A stretch of 64,000 nucleotides of DNA, taken from positions 1-64,000 of the forward strand of contig JAAYVB010000010.1 of the NCBI GenBank assembly GCA_012517405.1. Direction: 5' to 3'. This document shows, in pieces, positions 55,864 to 64,000 of this stretch. Position 1 is the stretch's first letter. Each line of letters opens with the position of its first letter. The notes below the pieces were generated by a model that saw only the letters and a list, made by a program, of their open reading frames with translations, searched no databases and was not told the DNA's origin. The position numbers and the translations under genes are program-made. The stretch comes from Propionibacterium sp. (GTDB taxonomy: Bacteria > Actinomycetota > Actinomycetes > Propionibacteriales > Propionibacteriaceae).

Positions 55864-57498
55864 CTACATCCGCTCGGGAGCGACGATTCCCAACAGACCG
55901 AGGCCGGTGGCCAGTACCTGCTTGGTCGCGGCGACCAGCGCCAGCCGGGAGGTCTGAACCTCACCCTCGCTCTTGAGCACCGGGCACTTCTCGTAGAAGG
56001 TCGAGAACTTGGTAGCCAGCTCGAACAGGTAGGTGCACAGCTTGTGCGGGGTCAACTCGTCGGCCACCGCCTGCACGGTCTCCCCGAAACGAGTCAGCCA
56101 CAAGGCGAGTTCCTGCTCGGCCGGCTCGTCCAGCACCGTGACGATGCTCCAGGTCAGCTCCCGAGCGGCGGCTTCGCGCAGGATGCCCGCGCACCGCGAG
56201 TGCGCGTACTGCAGATAGGGTCCGGTGTCGCCGGTGGTCTGGGTCATCCGCTCCGCGTCGAAGACGTAGTCCTTCTGCAGGCTGTTCGACAGGTCGGCGT
56301 ACTTGATCGCGGCCAGCGCGATCTCGGGGGACGCATGCTCCTCGGCGGCGTCCAGGAGGCTTTCGAGGGTGACGGCGCCGCCGTCACGAGTCTTGATCGG
56401 GGTGCCGCCGGGCCCCAGCACCATGCCGAAGCCGACGTGCTGCGCCTGCACATCGTCCGGCAGGTATCCGGCCATCCGGGCGACGGCGAAGACCAGCTGA
56501 AAGTGGTGTGCCTGCCGGGCGTCGGTGACGTAGATGATGCGTTCGGCACCCAGCTCGTTCACCCGGAAGCGGATCGCGGCCACATCTGTGGCGTCGTAGC
56601 CGTAGCCCCCGGTCGAGTTACGGATGATCGCCGGAGCGTCGAAGCCGTCCACGAAGACCACCAGGGCCCCGCCGTCCTGGACGGCGATGCCGCGGGCCTC
56701 CAGATCATCGGCGACCTGGCCGAGCATCTCGTTGTAGGCGGACTCCCCCGCCACGTCCTCGTCGGTGAGCAGCACATTCATCCGCTGGTAGGTGCGGTTG
56801 AACCCGGCCAGCGAGATCTTGATCAGGCGCTGCCACGAGGCCCTGGTCTCCGGATCGCCCGATTGCAGCTTCACGACCCGCTCACGGGCGCGTTCGGCGA
56901 ACGCCTCGTCCTCATTGAGATGGGTGTTGGCGCGCCGGTAGAGCGCTTCGGCGCCGGGCAGATCGAGGGTGTCCAGATCGAGCATCTCGTCGGTGACCTG
57001 CTCGATCAGCATGCCGAACTGCCGTCCCCAGTCACCGATGTGGTTCTGGGCGAGCACTCGGTTTCCCTGGGCGCTCAGCACCCGGTTGAAACAGTCGCCG
57101 ATGATGGTCGACCGCAGGTGACCGACGTGCATCTGCTTGGCCACGTTCGGTGACGAGTAGTCGATGACGACCGTCTTGGGGTCGTCGACCCAGGCGATCC
57201 CGGCATGCGGGTCAGCCAGCTGCTGGTCGACGGCGTGGGCCAGCACGTCGGTGCGCAGCCGGAAGTTGATGAAACCGGGCCCGGCGATCTCGGGGGGCTC
57301 GCACAGATCGTCCAGATCAAGGGCGCCGACGATGCGCTGGGCTACGTCGCGCGGTTTGGCGCCTTCCTGCGGGGCCAGTCGCAACGCGACATTCGACTGG
57401 AAGTGACCGAATTGCGGCTTGGTGGCTGGACGCAGCTCCGGGTCGGCGCCGGCAACCGCTTCGATCCGCTCGGAGAGAATCGAGGGCAGTGAAGACAT
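55864..57498 (-). CDS. argS: arginine--tRNA ligase
   Basis: A 544-residue class I synthetase. The N-terminal ArgRS-specific domain (about 1-90) is followed by the HIGH-type motif SSPNVAKQMHVGHLRSTIIGD. The KMSKS loop is degenerate, as is common in ArgRS (PIKTRDGGAVTLE). The DALR anticodon-binding domain follows, with GPYLQYAHSRCAGILR and a C-terminal helix ending PERM. The ATG at 57498 is preferred over the upstream in-frame ATG at 57537, because MSSLPSILSERI is the family N-terminus. Confidence 0.97.
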   Translation of the reverse strand: MSSLPSILSERIEAVAGADPELRPATKPQFGHFQSNVALRLAPQEGAKPRDVAQRIVGALDLDDLCEPPEIAGPGFINFRLRTDVLAHAVDQQLADPHAGIAWVDDPKTVVIDYSSPNVAKQMHVGHLRSTIIGDCFNRVLSAQGNRVLAQNHIGDWGRQFGMLIEQVTDEMLDLDTLDLPGAEALYRRANTHLNEDEAFAERARERVVKLQSGDPETRASWQRLIKISLAGFNRTYQRMNVLLTDEDVAGESAYNEMLGQVADDLEARGIAVQDGGALVVFVDGFDAPAIIRNSTGGYGYDATDVAAIRFRVNELGAERIIYVTDARQAHHFQLVFAVARMAGYLPDDVQAQHVGFGMVLGPGGTPIKTRDGGAVTLESLLDAAEEHASPEIALAAIKYADLSNSLQKDYVFDAERMTQTTGDTGPYLQYAHSRCAGILREAAARELTWSIVTVLDEPAEQELALWLTRFGETVQAVADELTPHKLCTYLFELATKFSTFYEKCPVLKSEGEVQTSRLALVAATKQVLATGLGLLGIVAPERM

Positions 57499-57505
57499 GC
57501 CGCCT

Positions 57506-57511
57506 ATTGTC
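57506..57511 (-). promoter_or_regulatory. possible -10 of argS
   Basis: GACAAT on the minus strand, 7 bases before the ATG at 57498. Confidence 0.35.
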
Positions 57512-57551
57512 TCACCTCTTCCCGGATGGGCCGGCATCGTCCGTCCGCGGG

Positions 57552-58193
57552 CTAACGATGCCGGGCCAAGGCTTCGTCCACTGCGGGATCGTAAATGAGG
57601 GTGCCGACATCGGTCTTCATCACCACGTCAACGATCATCTTGATGTTGGCGATCAGCTCGCGGCGTTCGTAGCTGCGCCAGGTCTCGTTCTTGGCTGTCT
57701 CGTCGTCGCCGACACCGATGGCATCCACGCCGACCATCCGGCAGGTGGCGACCGTGCGCGGCACGTGGTAACTCTGCGAAATGACCGTCAGCTGGGTCAC
57801 TCCGAAGATTCCCTTGGCCCGCACGCATGACGAGTAGGAGGAGTTGCCGCCTTCGTCCTCGACGATGTCGAGCGGATCGACGCCGTTCTCCTCGAGGTAG
57901 GCGCGCATCACGGCCGGCTCATCGTCGCTGGTGCTGCCCGACACGATGAAAACGGTGATCTTGCCCTGCTCCCACAGCTGCAACGCCAGGTCGAGCCGGG
58001 CCTTCAGATAACCGGAGGGCCGACCGTTCAGGGTCGCCGCACCCATCACCAGTCCGACGTCGTTGGAGGGTGCCTCATCCGCGCTGGTCCAGGTGCGCCC
58101 GAATGACAGCACCTGGACGAGGGCCCATGGCCCTCCCACGACGAGCAGAGCGATCAGGAGCAGGGCGAGCAGCGCGCGCCAAAGTTTGCGCAT
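57552..58193 (-). CDS. SanA/DUF218-family membrane protein
   Basis: A 213-residue protein with one N-terminal helix (residues ~3-22, LWRALLALLLIALLVVGGP) and an extracytoplasmic DUF218 (YdcF/SanA-like) domain: DVGLVMGAATLNGRPSG, LDLALQLWEQGKITVFIVSG, VVEDEGGNS-like VEDEGGNSSYSSCVRA, and VISQSYHVPRTVATCRMVG. SanA affects envelope permeability (vancomycin exclusion) in enterics, probably through a nucleotide- or lipid-sugar. The ATG at 58193 is chosen over 58220 because TAGGGT sits 7 bases upstream. Confidence 0.82.
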   Translation of the reverse strand: MRKLWRALLALLLIALLVVGGPWALVQVLSFGRTWTSADEAPSNDVGLVMGAATLNGRPSGYLKARLDLALQLWEQGKITVFIVSGSTSDDEPAVMRAYLEENGVDPLDIVEDEGGNSSYSSCVRAKGIFGVTQLTVISQSYHVPRTVATCRMVGVDAIGVGDDETAKNETWRSYERRELIANIKMIVDVVMKTDVGTLIYDPAVDEALARHR

Positions 58194-58200
58194 GGGGCCA

Positions 58201-58206
58201 ACCCTA
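58201..58206 (-). promoter_or_regulatory. -10 hexamer of the SanA-like gene
   Basis: TAGGGT on the minus strand, 7 bases before the ATG at 58193. Confidence 0.45.
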
Positions 58207-58209
58207 CGT

Positions 58210-58230
58210 GGCTTGGTCAAAGACCAGGCC
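58210..58230 (-). terminator. 9-bp hairpin after pgi
   Basis: GGCTTGGTC and GACCAGGCC pair (one G-U) around AAA, 34 bases beyond the pgi stop and upstream of the SanA-like gene. Short for a terminator. Confidence 0.45.
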
Positions 58231-58263
58231 TGATTGCGCTGTCAGGATCGCAGACCGCAGGGA

Positions 58264-59937
58264 TCAGATCCGATGATCGCGGTAGAATCCGATCAGGTTC
58301 TGGGTGGACGTATCCTGGCGAGCCAATGCCTCGTCGTCCCCGGTCACCGCCGGCGCGATCTCCATGGCGAGTTGCTTGCCCAACTCGACGCCCCACTGAT
58401 CGAACGAGTTGATGCCCCAGACGACCCCCTCGACGAAGGTGATGTGCTCGTAGAGGGCGATCAGCTCACCGACGACCCGCGGGCTGATCTCGGCGGCCAT
58501 GATCGATGTGGTCGGCTTGTTGCCCGGGAAGACCCGCGCCTCGACGATCGCCTCACGGGTGCCTTCGGCGCGCACCTCGTCGGCGGTCTTGCCGAAGGCG
58601 AGGGCCGCGGTCTGCGCGAAGAAGTTGGACAAGAAGAGCGCGTGCACGTCGACCCCGCCTTCGCGCAGCGCGTGCGCGGGGTTCACGGCGGCGATGAAGT
58701 CGGCCGGAATCACCTTGGTCCCCTGGTGAATCAGCTGGTAGAAGGCGTGCTGACCGTTGGTGCCCGGCTCACCCCAGAAGACCTCGCCGGTCTGGGTGGT
58801 GACCGGTGAGGCATCCCAGCGGGTGCGCTTGCCGTTGGATTCCATGGTGAGTTGCTGCAGGTAGGCGGCGAAGCGGTGCAGGTACTGCGCATACGGCAGC
58901 ACGGCGTGCGACTGGGCGTCGTAGAAGTTGTTGTACCAGACGTTGAGCAGACCCATCAGCACCGGCAGGTTCTCGGAGAAGTCCGCGGTGCGGAAGTGTT
59001 CGTCCATGGCGTGGAAGCCCGCCAGGACGCTCTGCCAGTTTTCCGGCCCGATCGCGATGACATCGGCCAGGCCGACTGCCGAGTCGACCGAGTAGCGGCC
59101 GCCGACCCAGTCCCAGAACCCGAAGGCGTTCTGCGGATCGATGCCGAACTCGGCAACCTTCTCGAGGTTGGTCGATACGGCCACGAAATGCCGGCGGATG
59201 GCCTCGGCCCGGGCCTCGTCCGTGTTGTCGATGATGCCACTGGTCTGCAGCGAGTTCAGCAGCCAGTTCTTGGCCATCCGGGCGTTGGTCATGGTCTCCA
59301 AGGTGGTGAAGGTCTTGGACGCCACGATGAACAGCACGGTCTCGGGGTCGACGTCATGGGTGGTCTCGTAGATGTCGGCAGGATCGATATTGCTGACGAA
59401 GCGGCACTCGAGGCCGGGCTGCTGGTAGGGCTTGAGCGCCTCGTAAACCATGACGGGGCCCAGATCGGAGCCACCGATTCCGATGTTGACGATGGTGCGG
59501 ATCGGCTTGCCGGTGATGCCCACCCACTCGCCGGAGCGGATCTGGTCGGCCAGGACGTACATGCGGTCGAGCACTTCGTGCACCTGCTGGACGACATCCA
59601 CGCCGTCAACGATCAAGGAGGCGTCGCGCGGCAGCCGCAACGCCGTGTGCAGCACCGAACGGTTCTCGGTGGTGTTGATCCGCTCGCCGGCGAACATCGC
59701 CTCACGGCGGCCGGCAAGGTCGACCTGCTCGGCGAGCCGGACGAGTGCATCCTTGATCTCGTCGGTCAGGTAGTTCTTGGACAGATCCGCATAGAGATCG
59801 GCAGCGGCGAGCGAGAACCGCTGGGCCCGGTCGGGATCGTCGGCGAACCAGGCGCGGAAATCAACATTCAGATCGTCATGCAGCCGGGCGAGTTCCGCCC
59901 AGGCGGGAGTGGCAGTCGCATCAACGGGAGTACGCAT
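58264..59937 (-). CDS. pgi: glucose-6-phosphate isomerase
   Basis: A 557-residue glycolytic isomerase (glucose 6-phosphate to fructose 6-phosphate). Signature regions: [47 protein letters not shown], the catalytic glutamate in [18 protein letters not shown], and the late [10 protein letters not shown] with the catalytic lysine. Length matches the eukaryote-like long Pgi. A -10 box 6 bases before the ATG suggests a leaderless transcript. Confidence 0.97.
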
Positions 59938-59943
59938 AGGCCA

Positions 59944-59949
59944 AGCTTA
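59944..59949 (-). promoter_or_regulatory. -10 hexamer of pgi
   Basis: TAAGCT on the minus strand, 6 bases before the ATG at 59937. Confidence 0.55.
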
Positions 59950-60010
59950 TGGGTTTTGGCCTACCAGTGGCGAGACGGCCAGCGGGAATTCCCACCGGCC
60001 CCGAGCCGGC

Positions 60011-61060
60011 TCAGGCCACCCGGCGCATCGCGGTGATGTCGTACCCGCTGATCGAGCTGACGATGACACCGATGCCGTAGTCGGCTGCATGCACCATCTG
60101 ACCGTTGCCGATGTACATGCCGACGTGGCCGCCGCCGTAGGAGATGATCAGGTCGCCGGGCTGCAGTGCCGAGGTCGATGACACCGCGGTGCCGGCCGAC
60201 ATCATGGCGCCGCTGGTGCGGGGCAGGCTGACACCCATCGCGGAGTAGGAGTACACCATCAGACCCGAGCAGTCGAAGGCGTTCGGGCCGGTGGCACCCC
60301 ACGAGTAGGCCTTGCCAACCTGGGCGAGCGCGATCGAGACAGCGCCGGAGGCGGTGCTGCTCGCCGAGCCGGCGATGGCCGCGGTGTCGGCTGTCGAGGT
60401 GGCGGCGGATGTGGACGCCGAACCGGTGGTCTGGCTGGCCGCGCTGCTGGCGGCAGCCGCTGCGGCGGCCGCTTCCTCAGCCTGCCGGGCCGCTTCGGCC
60501 TGCCGGGCTTCCTCAGCCTGGCGAGCCTCTTCAGCCTGCCGGGCCTCCTCGGCCTGGCGAGCCTCTTCAGCCTGGCGAGCTTCCTCGGCCTGACGGGCCG
60601 CCTCGGCCTGCCGGGCCTCTTCGGCATTGCGGGCATCCTGCTCGGTGACGGGATCGACGAGCGTGGTCCGGTCGGCGCTGCGCGAGATCGGCGTGGTGGT
60701 CTGCAACGCCGGTTCGGCGGCGGTGACCGTGCTCGACAGATTCGGGACGATGAGTGCCGCGCTGGCGGTTGCCACTGCGGCTGCACCCATCAGGCCACGC
60801 TGCAGGCGGGAATGCAGGCCGCGCGGCTTGGGCTTGATGGTGGTGATGGCGGCAAGCTGACGGGTGCTGGTCAGCGGTTCGTCCGGCTCGAAACTCAGCG
60901 GCGCATCGATCGCGCGGGTGGCTCGCGCGGCGGACACGCTGAGCAGCGTGTCGTCCACGAGCTCCAGGGGTGGCGTCGGCATGGCGCGCCGCGCGCAGGA
61001 CTGCTGAATGCTGTCCGTGGCGTCGACGACCGGGTCGAGCAGTGCCCTTCGTGCGCTCAT
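60011..61060 (-). CDS. NlpC/P60 cell-wall hydrolase with cytoplasmic RRA-motif N-terminus
   Basis: A 349-residue protein. Residues 1-90 precede the only hydrophobic segment (about 89-115, GLMGAAAVATASAALIVPNL) and carry basic SARRALLDP and related motifs. Residues ~145-200 are tandem ARQAEE hexapeptides forming a coiled coil. After a Ser/Ala/Thr linker, the NlpC/P60 domain (about 240-349) has catalytic Cys264 (AFDCSGL), His312 (GGHVGMYIG) and His324 (MVHAADYG). It should cut peptidoglycan stem peptides. It is 32 bases downstream of a sister gene with the same N-terminal module but another catalytic domain. Confidence 0.85.
   Translation of the reverse strand: MSARRALLDPVVDATDSIQQSCARRAMPTPPLELVDDTLLSVSAARATRAIDAPLSFEPDEPLTSTRQLAAITTIKPKPRGLHSRLQRGLMGAAAVATASAALIVPNLSSTVTAAEPALQTTTPISRSADRTTLVDPVTEQDARNAEEARQAEAARQAEEARQAEEARQAEEARQAEEARQAEEARQAEAARQAEEAAAAAAAASSAASQTTGSASTSAATSTADTAAIAGSASSTASGAVSIALAQVGKAYSWGATGPNAFDCSGLMVYSYSAMGVSLPRTSGAMMSAGTAVSSTSALQPGDLIISYGGGHVGMYIGNGQMVHAADYGIGVIVSSISGYDITAMRRVA
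60470..60622 (-). repeat. 18-bp tandem repeat encoding ARQAEE
   Basis: About eight in-frame 18-base units (plus-strand form GCCTCTTCAGCCTGGCGA) encode the coiled-coil hexapeptides of the NlpC/P60 protein. Confidence 0.85.
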
Positions 61061-61092
61061 TTATCAATCCTTAAGGTTGCGATGTGCCGTGG

Positions 61093-62112
61093 TCAGCGTA
61101 CCGTGACATGCACGTGGTCGTAATGATTCGCGGTGGGAGATCCGCGATCTTCCATCATGGTGAAGCCAGCGCTGGGGGCCCAGTTACCCCACATGCTCTG
61201 TTGATAGATGACGTATTCGACGTTCAGCGAGCTTGAGTTGGCGACCAGCCAGTTGGCGATCTGCCAACCTGCGTCGCCGCTGATCATGATGTCAATGGCC
61301 TGGCCAGCGCCATGATCATCGGCTGAGTTGCGCCAGCCACCGTACGAGGTGACATTGGGGAACTGCGCGCACACGGCCAGGAAGGTGGCATAGGCCTGAG
61401 AGGTGAGCCCAAGGCCGGATCCGTCGAACGAGCAGCTGCCACCAGTTGCCACGGCCGGGGCCGACGAGGTGGCGGTAGTGGCCGATGTCCCTGCTGGGGA
61501 CGGGCTCTGCTTGGCGGCCTCGGCGGCTGTCTGCTCGGCAGCCACGCGCTGTTCTTCGGCCACCCGGGCGGCTTCGGCAGCCGCGGCGGCCTCCTCGGCC
61601 TGACGGGCCTCCTCGGCCTGGCGCGCTGCTTCGGCTTCGGCAGCCGCCTTCGCGTTGGCCAAGGTGACCGGGTTGATGGCTTCTTCGGTGCGGTCGAGGC
61701 CGCGGGAGATGGTCTCATCGCTAGTCGGCGCCGGTTGGGCGGTCACGACGCTGACGGCGCTGGGGGTGAGCAGGATGGCGGATGCGGTGGCCACGGCGGC
61801 GGCTCCGAACAGCCCGCGGCGCAGCCGCTGGCCCTTCACGGCCGGCCTCACCGAGGCGGCACCGGTGACCTTCGGCAGCTGGCGGGTGCTGCCGAGAGCT
61901 TCGTCCGGCTCGAAACTGATAGGGGCCGAGATGGCTCGGCGGGCCGCAGAAACACTGACCGGTGAGTCGTCAACGATGACGGCTTCGTCGGCTACCCCCC
62001 GACGCGCGGACGCGTAGGTGAAGACGGGGGTGATGGGGTCGTCGATCTCAGTGCCCGGGTCGAGGATGGCTCGGCGTGCTGTCACTGATTCTCCCAAGGG
62101 ATTGTCTGTCAT
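61093..62112 (-). CDS. secreted M15-like (ARB-07466-type) protein with RRA-motif N-terminus
   Basis: A 339-residue sister of the NlpC/P60 protein downstream. The N-terminal ~150 residues share TARRAILDP, VSVSAARRAI, ISFEPDEALGSTRQL, RRGLFGAAAVATAS (membrane segment ~100-125) and ISRGLDRT. Residues ~155-200 are an Ala/Glu/Gln/Arg coiled coil. The C-terminal ~115 residues resemble the ARB-07466-like domain: His267 and Asp274 in DDHGAGQAIDIM and His333/His335 in NHYDHVHVTVR match the HxxGxxxD...HxH zinc pattern of M15 (VanY-like) peptidases. A cell-wall peptidase role is probable but unproven. First gene of the pair. Confidence 0.8.
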   Translation of the reverse strand: MTDNPLGESVTARRAILDPGTEIDDPITPVFTYASARRGVADEAVIVDDSPVSVSAARRAISAPISFEPDEALGSTRQLPKVTGAASVRPAVKGQRLRRGLFGAAAVATASAILLTPSAVSVVTAQPAPTSDETISRGLDRTEEAINPVTLANAKAAAEAEAARQAEEARQAEEAAAAAEAARVAEEQRVAAEQTAAEAAKQSPSPAGTSATTATSSAPAVATGGSCSFDGSGLGLTSQAYATFLAVCAQFPNVTSYGGWRNSADDHGAGQAIDIMISGDAGWQIANWLVANSSSLNVEYVIYQQSMWGNWAPSAGFTMMEDRGSPTANHYDHVHVTVR

Positions 62113-62113
62113 T

Positions 62114-62143
62114 CCTGAGAAGAATCTTAAGGATCTTCTCAGG
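62114..62143. promoter_or_regulatory. 30-bp palindrome before the M15-like gene
   Basis: CCTGAGAAGA (62114-62123) and TCTTCTCAGG (62134-62143) are perfect arms around a near-palindromic ATCTTAAGGA centre. It abuts the ATG at 62112 and includes the AGGA ribosome site. The sister gene start (61060) is preceded by a related CCTTAAGGATT. Confidence 0.55.
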
Positions 62144-62203
62144 AGAACACAAGTTGTCAGGGGAATCTGCTCAGAAAAGATTCAGAAAGGGCCGTCCGGA
62201 CGG

Positions 62204-62851
62204 CTAGCTGCGGGTTCGGGTGGCCTCGACGATCGGACGAGCACGAGAGCGCAACGCACTCAGATCGCCGCGATGCAGGGCGTCCCCGATGAGCCTGTCG
62301 GCCAGGCACACCGCTACCGCACCGGCACCCAGCCAGGCCTTGACCTCGTGCACTGACTCGGCCCCGCGGGCCAGCACTGCGATGTCGGGCAGCAGGGCGG
62401 CCAGCTGCGCCGGGTAGCTCGTGCCGAGCACCCCGGCCGGGACGACCTGGACCGCGGCCGCATCCGGTTGCTTCCAGGCGTTGGCGATCTCGGTCGGAGT
62501 GAGCGCGGCCGGGCACTGGGGGATCTGGGCGGCGGCGAGCTCTGAGCGGAGCTGGTCGTCGTCACCCAGGGTGAGGGCGAAGGCGGCCTGCTCAGATACC
62601 GCCCACTGCGCGTCCGCGGGGGTGCGCAGGTCATGGGTCCCGACCAACAGCCGGCGTCCGAACACCCGGCGCAGCATGGACGGGGTCAGCCGCTGACCCG
62701 GACTGAGGCTGAGGATCGGCAGACCTTCCTCGATGAGGACCTCGACCGGGGCGACCGCCTCGTCCAGGGTGCAGCCGGGCAGCAGCACAATGACCTTGGC
62801 CTCGACGAGTCCGGCAGGCAGTTCGACGCGTGGATTCACGGCATCAATCAT
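62204..62851 (-). CDS. KDPG-aldolase-family homologue lacking catalytic residues
   Basis: A 215-residue protein that follows the Eda (2-keto-3-deoxy-6-phosphogluconate aldolase) fold pattern throughout, including CPAALTPTEIANAWKQPD and VQVVPAGVLG. The Schiff-base lysine of the FKFFPAE motif is Gln135 here. The catalytic glutamate of LEVTLRT is Ser48 (ILSLSPG), and the phosphate-site TLRT is lost too. It is therefore unlikely to be an aldolase. It starts 3 bases after the YeiH-family permease gene, so a linked, perhaps regulatory or ligand-binding role is possible. Confidence 0.7.
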   Translation of the reverse strand: MIDAVNPRVELPAGLVEAKVIVLLPGCTLDEAVAPVEVLIEEGLPILSLSPGQRLTPSMLRRVFGRRLLVGTHDLRTPADAQWAVSEQAAFALTLGDDDQLRSELAAAQIPQCPAALTPTEIANAWKQPDAAAVQVVPAGVLGTSYPAQLAALLPDIAVLARGAESVHEVKAWLGAGAVAVCLADRLIGDALHRGDLSALRSRARPIVEATRTRS

Positions 62852-62854
62852 GGA

Positions 62855-64000
62855 TCAGAAAGTGAAGCTGCCCCACAGCAGGACGGCCAGCAGCAGCCCG
62901 ACCGCCAGATTCACGACCGTGGCCGCGGCGAAGACGAGCACCGGCTTCCAGCCCGCTTCCTTCAGCGAACCGAAGCTGAACTCCAGGCCGATGCTGACGA
63001 ACGCCAGGATCAGGAACCAGGTGCGCAGCTCGTTGGCGACGCCGATTGCGGAAGCGGCGAAGGTGGGATCGGCGTTGGACGCGAAGATGGTCGCCACGAC
63101 GGAGGCGATCAGGAAGCCGAGCACGAACTTCGGGAAGCTGCGCCACAAGGTGATCAGCGTCGGAGCCGAGGTATCGCCGGCCTCGCGCTGGGTCTTGACG
63201 GTGAAGCACATCGTCAGCAGCACGGCGACCACACCGAGCAGCGCGTTCTGGGTGACCTTGACGATGGTCGCGACCTGCAGCGGCTGCTCACCGGCCATCG
63301 TGCCCGCGGCGGTGACGGCTGCGGTGGTGTCGATATTGCCGCCGATCCAGGCGCCGGTGACCGCGGGGCTGAGCCCGAGCAGTCCGGAGGCCCAGGGCAG
63401 CAGGAAGATCATCGGAACCGCGAAGACAATCACCAGCGAGGCCGTGTAGGCGAGTTGCTCCTTCTTGGCCTGTACTGCGCCCGCGGCGGCGACGGCGGCC
63501 GATACGCCGCAGATCGAGATAGCCGAGCTCAGCAGGGCGCGGAGTTTGTCGTCCAGCCCGAGCAGGCCGGAGAACCACCAGGTGAACAAGAAGACGGCGG
63601 TGATCAGCAGACAGGCCTGGACGATGGCGGGCACCGCGGCCTTCGCGATGACCGCGAAGTTGATGGAGGCGCCGAGCAGGACCAGGCCGGTCTTGATCAG
63701 GAATTCGGTGCGGAAGGCCCTCGACATCTTCTTCCGCAGGCCCAGCGCGGACAAGATCGCGTTGGCGGCGAAGCCGACGAGGATCGCATAGACGGGGAAC
63801 TCGATCGACTTCGCGATCTGGCCGAAGCCGGTGCCCTTGGTGGCGGCCGGCACCCATTCGGTCAGGGAGTGGACGAGGAAGCCGAGTCCCAACAGCACGA
63901 CGATGCCGAGGATCGTCCAGATGATCGGGTGTTGTCCGGCCTGCGGCGCGGCGGGGGCGGCGGGGGCTGTCTCGGTGGGGGCTGTCTCGGCGGAGGCGGC
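62855..64000 (-). CDS. YeiH/UPF0324-family permease, 5' end beyond the window
   Basis: At least 381 residues; the frame stays open to the window edge, so the start is missing. An Ala/Pro/Thr-rich N-terminal stretch (ETAPTETAPAAPAAPQAG) is followed by about ten to eleven helices. Family segments include KTGLVLLGASINFAVIAKAA, SAISICGVSAAVAAAGAVQAKK, SPAVTGAWIGGNIDTTAAVTAAG and LIASVVATIFASNADPTF (each within 20 or so residues). The YeiH group is annotated as putative sulfate/sulfonate exporters; the substrate is uncertain. It is coupled to the aldolase homologue. Confidence 0.85.
   Translation of the reverse strand, partial: AASAETAPTETAPAAPAAPQAGQHPIIWTILGIVVLLGLGFLVHSLTEWVPAATKGTGFGQIAKSIEFPVYAILVGFAANAILSALGLRKKMSRAFRTEFLIKTGLVLLGASINFAVIAKAAVPAIVQACLLITAVFLFTWWFSGLLGLDDKLRALLSSAISICGVSAAVAAAGAVQAKKEQLAYTASLVIVFAVPMIFLLPWASGLLGLSPAVTGAWIGGNIDTTAAVTAAGTMAGEQPLQVATIVKVTQNALLGVVAVLLTMCFTVKTQREAGDTSAPTLITLWRSFPKFVLGFLIASVVATIFASNADPTFAASAIGVANELRTWFLILAFVSIGLEFSFGSLKEAGWKPVLVFAAATVVNLAVGLLLAVLLWGSFTF

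Follow-up and report, generated by a model that had tools for sequence, protein, structure and literature searches.

The cell-wall hydrolase AtlA of Enterococcus faecalis carries a 53-residue signal that has been linked to poor secretion of a reporter and, together with the LysM domain of the enzyme and AdmA, to septal recruitment inside the cell before translocation (PMC10113225; restated in PMC12208459). The first of these papers states that elongated signal peptides had been studied before AtlA only in Gram-negative proteins, and it describes the extended signal peptide region (ESPR) of Gram-negative type V secretion (Pet, FHA), which has 23–25 residues, as delaying translocation (PMC10113225). 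Staphylococcal YSIRK/GXXS signals lead precursors to the cross-wall of dividing cells (PMC12004944). Here we describe two adjacent genes for exported wall hydrolases of a Propionibacterium species (genus code g1, host genome of 3.17 Mb) that share a long N-terminal module, which we read as a signal peptide with an extended n-region. The genes lie in a 64,000-nucleotide window, the whole stretch of DNA analysed (positions 1 to 64,000 of contig JAAYVB010000010.1, C19 in our numbering).

The two products, an NlpC/P60 hydrolase and a VldE/MT3-type peptidase (the NlpC and MT3 proteins), align over 175 positions with 85 identities (49%, E 1e-20, blastp). The identity is confined to the N-terminal part, past which blastp detects no meaningful similarity between them. 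A reading of the letters alone (the sequence-only reading) had proposed a common N-terminal part of about 150 residues, and the alignment bears this out, together with the motifs it had listed, all of which occur in both proteins: three RRA-type motifs (ARRA, ARRA and ATRA in the NlpC protein; ARRA, ARRG and ARRA in the MT3 protein), SFEPDE(P/A)L(T/G)STRQL, a single hydrophobic segment and ISR..DRT. That reading had placed the start of the second gene at the first ATG (61093-62112, minus strand, 339 aa). The start is most likely GTG 62085 instead, since GGGAG lies immediately 5' of it and all 11 rows of alignment A1 (nine from Propionibacterium plus G012 and G026, both window proteins included) open there with M-x-ARRA. 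A wrongly called upstream start is ruled out, because conservation begins at M-x-ARRA and the ratio of nonsynonymous to synonymous substitution rates (dN/dS) of the n-region is below 1. The genes and the parts of their modules are as follows.

60011..61060, minus strand: gene for an exported NlpC/P60 (C40) hydrolase, 349 aa (open reading frame, ORF; PF00877)
60797..61060, minus strand: extended n-region of the NlpC protein, residues 1-88, with ARRA/ARRA/ATRA (alignments A1, A6; dN/dS 0.17-0.50 against three congeners)
60854..60895, minus strand: SFEPDEPLTSTRQL motif of the NlpC protein, residues 56-69 (alignment A1; coordinates checked)
60719..60796, minus strand: hydrophobic core and c-region of the NlpC protein ending VTA|AEP, residues 89-114, with a putative signal peptidase I site
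60668..60688, minus strand: ISRSADR motif of the NlpC protein, residues 125-131, near the predicted mature N terminus
61093..62085, minus strand: gene for an exported VldE/MT3-type peptidase, 330 aa from the predicted GTG (ORF, start site, MT3 homology)
61816..62085, minus strand: extended n-region of the MT3 protein, residues 1-90, with ARRA/ARRG/ARRA (blastp, alignment A1)
61876..61917, minus strand: SFEPDEALGSTRQL motif of the MT3 protein, residues 57-70 (blastp, alignment A1)
61738..61815, minus strand: hydrophobic core and c-region of the MT3 protein ending VTA|QPA, residues 91-116, with a putative signal peptidase I site
61690..61710, minus strand: ISRGLDR motif of the MT3 protein, residues 126-132, near the predicted mature N terminus (blastp)

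Across 12 NlpC and MT3 proteins the module has the layout of a signal peptide with a very long front. The n-region, hydrophilic and near-neutral to slightly positive (net charge −2 to +5), is 60 residues long in P. cyclohexanicum (G033) and 79–92 in G012, G026 and members of the genus; the whole predicted signal peptide measures 104–118 residues, and 88 in P. cyclohexanicum. RRA-type motifs stand at residue 3 and at residues 21-27 in 12 of 12 proteins and at residues 42-48 in nine. The n-regions of 11 proteins hold 35 such motifs, whereas 5000 shuffles averaged 10.2 and never exceeded 20, a count in which the pattern was picked after viewing the sequences and the rows are related. The SFEPDExLxSTRxL motif is clear only in the nine Propionibacterium rows of A1, and reads SFEPAESLNSSRAL in G057. 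A short hydrophobic stretch follows, which in the NlpC protein is identical, c-region included, in G086 and G072. Placed by eye according to the general rules of signal peptidase cleavage, an AxA-type site follows it in 12 of 12 proteins, position −1 being Ala and position −3 small or aliphatic. A few residues past this site, (I/V)SRxxxR occurs in eight of the 12; neither G072 protein has it, nor do those of G026 and P. cyclohexanicum. The two G072 paralogues, which lack the ISR motif, have a common alternative post-signal segment (SSDL..PLTQ..., SQASRG; L035 7890-9967), and this segment looks as if it had been copied between the two genes. We also considered and rejected a twin-arginine signal common to the module: by the general features of such signals, RRGLF before the core in three of four MT3 proteins and RRGLL in G096 would be candidates, but the motif is not common to the module because the NlpC proteins have QRGL or other residues there.

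The membrane segment of the sequence-only reading is thus a hydrophobic stretch as stated, but one followed by a signal-peptidase-like site. This bears on the first alternative, in which the two products are type II membrane proteins: an uncleaved anchor would hold the enzyme facing the wall, and the cytoplasmic tail would tether it to a cytoplasmic or divisome partner. A docking module would be expected to look much like this, as a lengthy, conserved tail in the cytoplasm that is coding and constrained. However, the hydrophobic stretch is short and is followed by an AxA-type site in all 12 proteins, and on this ground we prefer a signal peptide. The module appears, from sites placed by eye that do not prove cleavage, to be the cleaved, atypical signal peptide that the sequence-only reading had itself named as the outcome contrary to its proposal. 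A cytoplasmic role of the n-region before export is plausible; retention of some 90 residues in the cytoplasm afterwards is unsupported. The putative cleavage by signal peptidase I is well supported by the sequences, as judged by eye; the tether in its retained form is probably wrong, and we regard it as unlikely.

Behind the modules stand unrelated enzymes, each preceded by a helical spacer.

60431..60643, minus strand: helical spacer of the NlpC protein, rich in Ala/Glu/Arg/Gln with 18-bp repeats, residues 140-210 (AlphaFold2 helix, predicted local distance difference test (pLDDT) 85-92 over 141-200)
60047..60316, minus strand: NlpC/P60 catalytic domain, residues 249-338 (PF00877 at E 1.5e-23; 83.2 bits, cut-off 23)
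61510..61671, minus strand: helical spacer of the MT3 protein, residues 139-192 (AlphaFold2 helix)
61096..61440, minus strand: VldE/MT3 domain, residues 216-330 (alignment A3, profile match to 9flh)

The coiled coil of the sequence-only reading is an Ala/Glu/Arg/Gln-rich repeat of 18 bp, or six residues, which AlphaFold2 models as a single long helix. The 18-bp tandem repeats at 60471-60639 code for the NlpC-protein spacer, whose length varies among relatives. Within the NlpC/P60 domain, C264 and H312, which we take to be the catalytic Cys and His, are invariant across eight proteins. The best NCBIfam match of the protein is RipC (NF038345, E 1.4e-36), the cut-off of which is missed (126.7 bits against 425). 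NlpC/P60 enzymes of the RipA/RipC type cut the bond between D-Glu and the diamino acid. The NlpC/P60 assignment agrees with the sequence-only reading, whereas the M15-like domain it saw in the second protein is a VldE/MT3 domain instead. Neither the whole MT3 protein at E 0.1 nor its C-terminal domain at E 10 has a Pfam match, M15 families included, and the G086 orthologue has none at E 0.01. The domain matches VldE/Spr1875 (phmmer 3.1e-15; profile E 1.7e-26 to PDB 9flh), and H258, D265, H324 and H326, invariant in the five rows of A3, correspond to Spr1875 H301, D308, H373 and H375. In PMC11667670, H301, D308 and H375 of Spr1875 are described as zinc ligands, along with H373, and the enzyme as cleaving the bond between L-Ala and D-Glu. 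By this homology, the MT3 domain would be an active peptidase.

The host genome holds two copies of the module and no more. The start-motif pattern occurs there in 23 places, and a plausible N terminus is seen at just one of them, the MT3 gene (the pattern misses the NlpC gene by one codon). A check of its other hydrolases covered the NlpC/P60 and M23 classes: its second NlpC/P60 protein and its M23 proteins (eight matches, seven frames read) are without the module. Elsewhere, a single-sequence search of 117 genomes, 43 of which match at E 0.1 (weak matches were read in part, and those read were chance), located the module in G086, G072, G096, G057, G012 and G026 (Propionimicrobium lymphophilum) as well as in G039, of the window's own species. 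In P. cyclohexanicum the module is diverged, with two of 1000 shuffles scoring as high, and a profile search detected none in the genus genomes G016 and G106. G016, of the same genus and 98% complete, also has no PGI match at E 1e-50; it seems that the pgi place has been lost there or that the genus is broad.

The landmark of the locus is pgi.

58264..59937, minus strand: pgi, landmark neighbour (PF00342; synteny)

In every module stretch inspected the NlpC gene lies directly before pgi. In the genus the MT3 gene precedes the NlpC gene, except in G057, where the NlpC gene stands alone; the second, MT3 copy is present in four of the five module-bearing species of g1, and NlpC/P60 stands behind the module in g1, g13, g26 and P. 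cyclohexanicum. When the stretch preceding pgi was inspected in 26 genera, one genome each, it held an NlpC gene with module in g1, g13 and g26, an M23 peptidase gene with a diverged RRA-type n-region in the sister genus g8, and an MT3-plus-SH3 gene in g17; the other 21 genera had nothing similar there, by eye and among the longest non-overlapping ORFs. Such an M23 gene precedes pgi in G007, G049 and G101, three of the seven g8 genomes (three of the seven have too little sequence before pgi), and in G031 it lies on another contig than pgi. Pfam confirmed M23 domains, those of G101, G049 and G031 among them. Scored against a module profile without M23 rows, the n-region of G101 reached 13.3 bits, a score attained by none of 1000 shuffles and by none of 1198 unrelated ORF starts, that of G049 7.7 bits (8 of 1000; 0 of 1198) and that of G007 6.9 bits (13 of 1000; 0 of 1198), with n-region starts and ends set by hand and six tests in all. 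Indeed, MSAQRAM...ATRGL...MRAIAAPVTF in G101 is close to MSARRAL...ARRAM...TRAIDAPLSF.

A further gene was rejected as a carrier: the n-region of the g17 MT3-plus-SH3 gene scored 0.7 bits, equalled by 475 of 1000 shuffles and 179 of 1198 ORF starts. This gene (G017, outside the module clade; L171 551-1456), with an MT3-like domain and an SH3 match just under the cut-off, also lies directly before pgi, and its product has a VSRSDAR motif past its signal peptide.

The nine module carriers group as one clade (support 100/99) in a 31-row PGI tree, in which G007 represents the M23 carriers. Three profile searches extended the survey. Profile A1 gave 16 matches at E 0.01 in 198 family genomes, of which eight were accepted and eight were read and rejected; A5 gave 24 at E 0.001 in 391 order genomes, ten being accepted and 14 rejected on reading as hydrophobic-core or chance matches; and A6 gave nine at E 0.001 in 394 class genomes, with only the window's own accepted and the other eight read and rejected. 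The profiles thus added no new carrier, as every accepted genome was already a profile row or of the window's species. Because A1 missed the g8 M23 proteins and only the first 10–20 candidates per genome were scored, diverged copies elsewhere may be missed.

The module has thus been found so far in one clade of Propionibacteriaceae. It is homologous within the genus and to G012 and G026, where its position and its place beside pgi are likewise kept, and it is tied to three catalytic classes, NlpC/P60, MT3 and, on moderate evidence, M23. The sequence-only proposal that different catalytic domains share the module therefore extends to relatives and to a third class, and a module limited to the gene pair is excluded by its presence in several related genomes. 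The simplest history would be a single origin of the module, followed by M23 or NlpC/P60 behind it and later by the MT3 duplicate. In the open-licence literature, covered in part through titles and abstract openings, we found no description of the module. A secreted 59 kDa NlpC/P60 peptidase of P. freudenreichii cannot be a module protein (PMC5902329); truncated 21–24 kDa forms in that species (same source) and an abundant surface NlpC/P60 protein (PMC11494915) are unassigned to a module protein.

The module also appears to have been kept independently of the enzyme, given the varied enzymes behind it and the case of G072, where the n-region of the NlpC gene is 82% identical to that of the window and the core 100%, whereas the NlpC domain is only 54% identical. 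Against G086 the values are 78%, 100% and 69%. Among the sequences compared, the best match of the G072 domain is a Nocardia domain (63%, 135 bits); G086 (58%, 126 bits) and P. cyclohexanicum (60%, 123 bits) follow closely, and congeners range over 49–58%. The domain may have been replaced behind a kept signal; since the G086 and P. cyclohexanicum scores are not far below, it may also have diverged fast. Six comparisons of the window with three congeners gave n-region dN/dS values of 0.17, 0.22, 0.23, 0.31, 0.36 and 0.50 (dS 0.6–1.7, the larger values near saturation), compared with 0.18–0.37 for the spacer, 0.25–0.31 for the NlpC domain and 0.11–0.26 for the MT3 domain.

These data bear on a second alternative, plain common descent, in which the 5' part was carried over by gene duplication and the long n-region serves as a signal peptide with no special task of its own. 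The MT3 copy adjoins the NlpC copy in the same orientation, all carriers found belong to one clade, and the n-region is no more constrained than the low-complexity spacer, as this alternative would have it. It accounts poorly, however, for RRA motifs well above shuffles, for a module found with M23, NlpC/P60 and MT3 domains, for a G072 module far better kept than its NlpC domain, and for the want of such an n-region in the second NlpC protein and the M23 proteins of the host genome, so that we consider it quite improbable. Far less probable still is a module that, instead of giving an address, works as a regulatory peptide released into the cytoplasm or as an export brake controlled by phosphorylation, with SFEPDExLTSTR as kinase or adaptor site: the combination of Ser/Thr and acidic residues beside STR is clear in the nine Propionibacterium rows, but G012, G026, P. 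cyclohexanicum and such M23 proteins as were read lack it.

We somewhat favour a reading in which the module is a long Sec signal peptide whose n-region is read by a partner, sets the place or time of export and is then cleaved off. The n-region would remain cytoplasmic as the pre-enzyme pauses at the Sec translocon or is guided to it. Its RRA motifs would be read by a partner, either cytoplasmic or in the membrane, which would so set where or when export takes place; the simplest choice would be sites where the wall grows or the cell divides. Cleavage by signal peptidase I after the AxA-type site would then let the mature enzyme depart module-free. Once exported, the NlpC/P60 and the MT3 enzyme would cut neighbouring stem-peptide bonds, D-Glu to diamino acid and L-Ala to D-Glu, respectively. 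A role before export is moderately supported. We infer which bonds are cut and that a reading partner exists; its recognition of the RRA motifs is proposed by analogy with the AtlA and YSIRK/GXXS signals, which have a task before export, and the septum as export site is suggested only by analogy.

Several observations weigh against this reading. The constraint on the n-region shows that it is translated and coding and indicates no special importance: its dN/dS does not fall below the values of the low-complexity spacer and, within the MT3 gene, exceeds those of the catalytic domain (0.11–0.26). In that gene the catalytic domain is the better kept part (73–86% against 41–63% for the n-region), and in the NlpC gene of G096 the order is reversed, with 50% identity in the n-region and 81% in the NlpC domain. 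The third RRA motif is in place in just nine of 12 proteins, and SFEPDE is unrecognizable in G012 and G026 and missing in P. cyclohexanicum and the M23 proteins read. The cleavage sites were placed by eye, in the NlpC and MT3 proteins. Homology of the M23 n-regions to the module is modest given their hand-set limits and the six tests: that of G031 reached only 4.0 bits (62 of 1000 shuffles; 7 of 1198 ORF starts), and in G065, another g8 genome, the 1.4 kb preceding pgi contain no gene of this kind. AlphaFold2 gave pLDDT below 50 for residues 1-134 of the NlpC protein and 1-138 of the MT3 protein, hydrophobic core included, which is compatible with disorder and, given alignments of eight and five rows, no proof of it. 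Finally, the extension is much longer than the 53-residue AtlA signal or the ESPRs of 23–25 residues.

A more specific version of the partner-read signal is tentative: the module may be a portable actinobacterial export address that lacks YSIRK, occupies one chromosomal place and is kept while the enzyme (M23, NlpC/P60, MT3 and perhaps a replaced NlpC domain in G072) is exchanged, so that a dedicated cytoplasmic reader sends chemically different cutters to the same place or cell-cycle moment. It is an open question how bacteria, ahead of export, confine lethal wall hydrolases to where they belong. The natural swaps, with one extended signal before three unrelated peptidase folds, separate the job of the signal from that of the enzyme and provide ready-made constructs for testing the role of the signal; a signal kept while enzymes are swapped suggests a reusable instruction that sets the place or time at which a dangerous enzyme is exported.

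Upstream of the MT3 gene, positions 62114-62143 form a perfect 10-bp inverted repeat with a 10-base loop, CCTGAGAAGA...TCTTCTCAGG. It is the sole match in the window at up to three mismatches (none in 100 shuffles), is kept in G072 and partly in G086, and lies downstream of an ACTTG(A/T)GT element found in five of five aligned upstream regions; the two are possibly a promoter with its operator. A riboswitch or other known RNA is not indicated upstream, with no Rfam match at E 1 in 57000-64000. Farther upstream, 62204-62851 encodes a weak KDPG-aldolase-like protein (28.0 bits against 27.8), with a similar gene in G072, G086, G096 and P. cyclohexanicum and none recognized in G057. After pgi, a DUF218/SanA-like gene at 57552-58220 was recognized by eye at the same place in six of six relatives' stretches; E. 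coli SanA is linked to peptidoglycan integrity (PMC13046291).

Compared with described enzymes, the NlpC protein resembles RipC in having a helical region followed by an NlpC/P60 domain (match to PDB 8idc, presumably a RipC chain, E 2.4e-20), whereas its NF038345 match starts at residue 139, past the module, and the protein is not RipC. The MT3 protein has the catalytic domain of VldE (Spr1875, PDB 9flh); in VldE, according to PMC11667670, a long disordered linker precedes MT3, in contrast to the module and helical spacer of the MT3 protein. As for the module, AtlA is likewise a Gram-positive wall hydrolase with an unusually long signal peptide, yet it belongs to another phylum, its signal is about half as long, and its targeting needs LysM and AdmA, whereas the two window proteins have no LysM match in Pfam. 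The YSIRK/GXXS signals are alike in being signal-peptide motifs with a sorting role before translocation, a role only proposed for the module; they differ in that SpA is a sortase-anchored surface protein while the module proteins are wall hydrolases with RRA-type motifs, and YSIRK occurs in none of the 13 rows of A6. With the ESPR the module would share an N-terminal extension before an otherwise ordinary signal peptide; this likeness is one of architecture, with no homology claimed, to Gram-negative extensions of 23–25 residues. Taken together, the sequences suggest that the module belongs among the extended signal peptides, the new element being an RRA-type version found so far in one propionibacterial clade.

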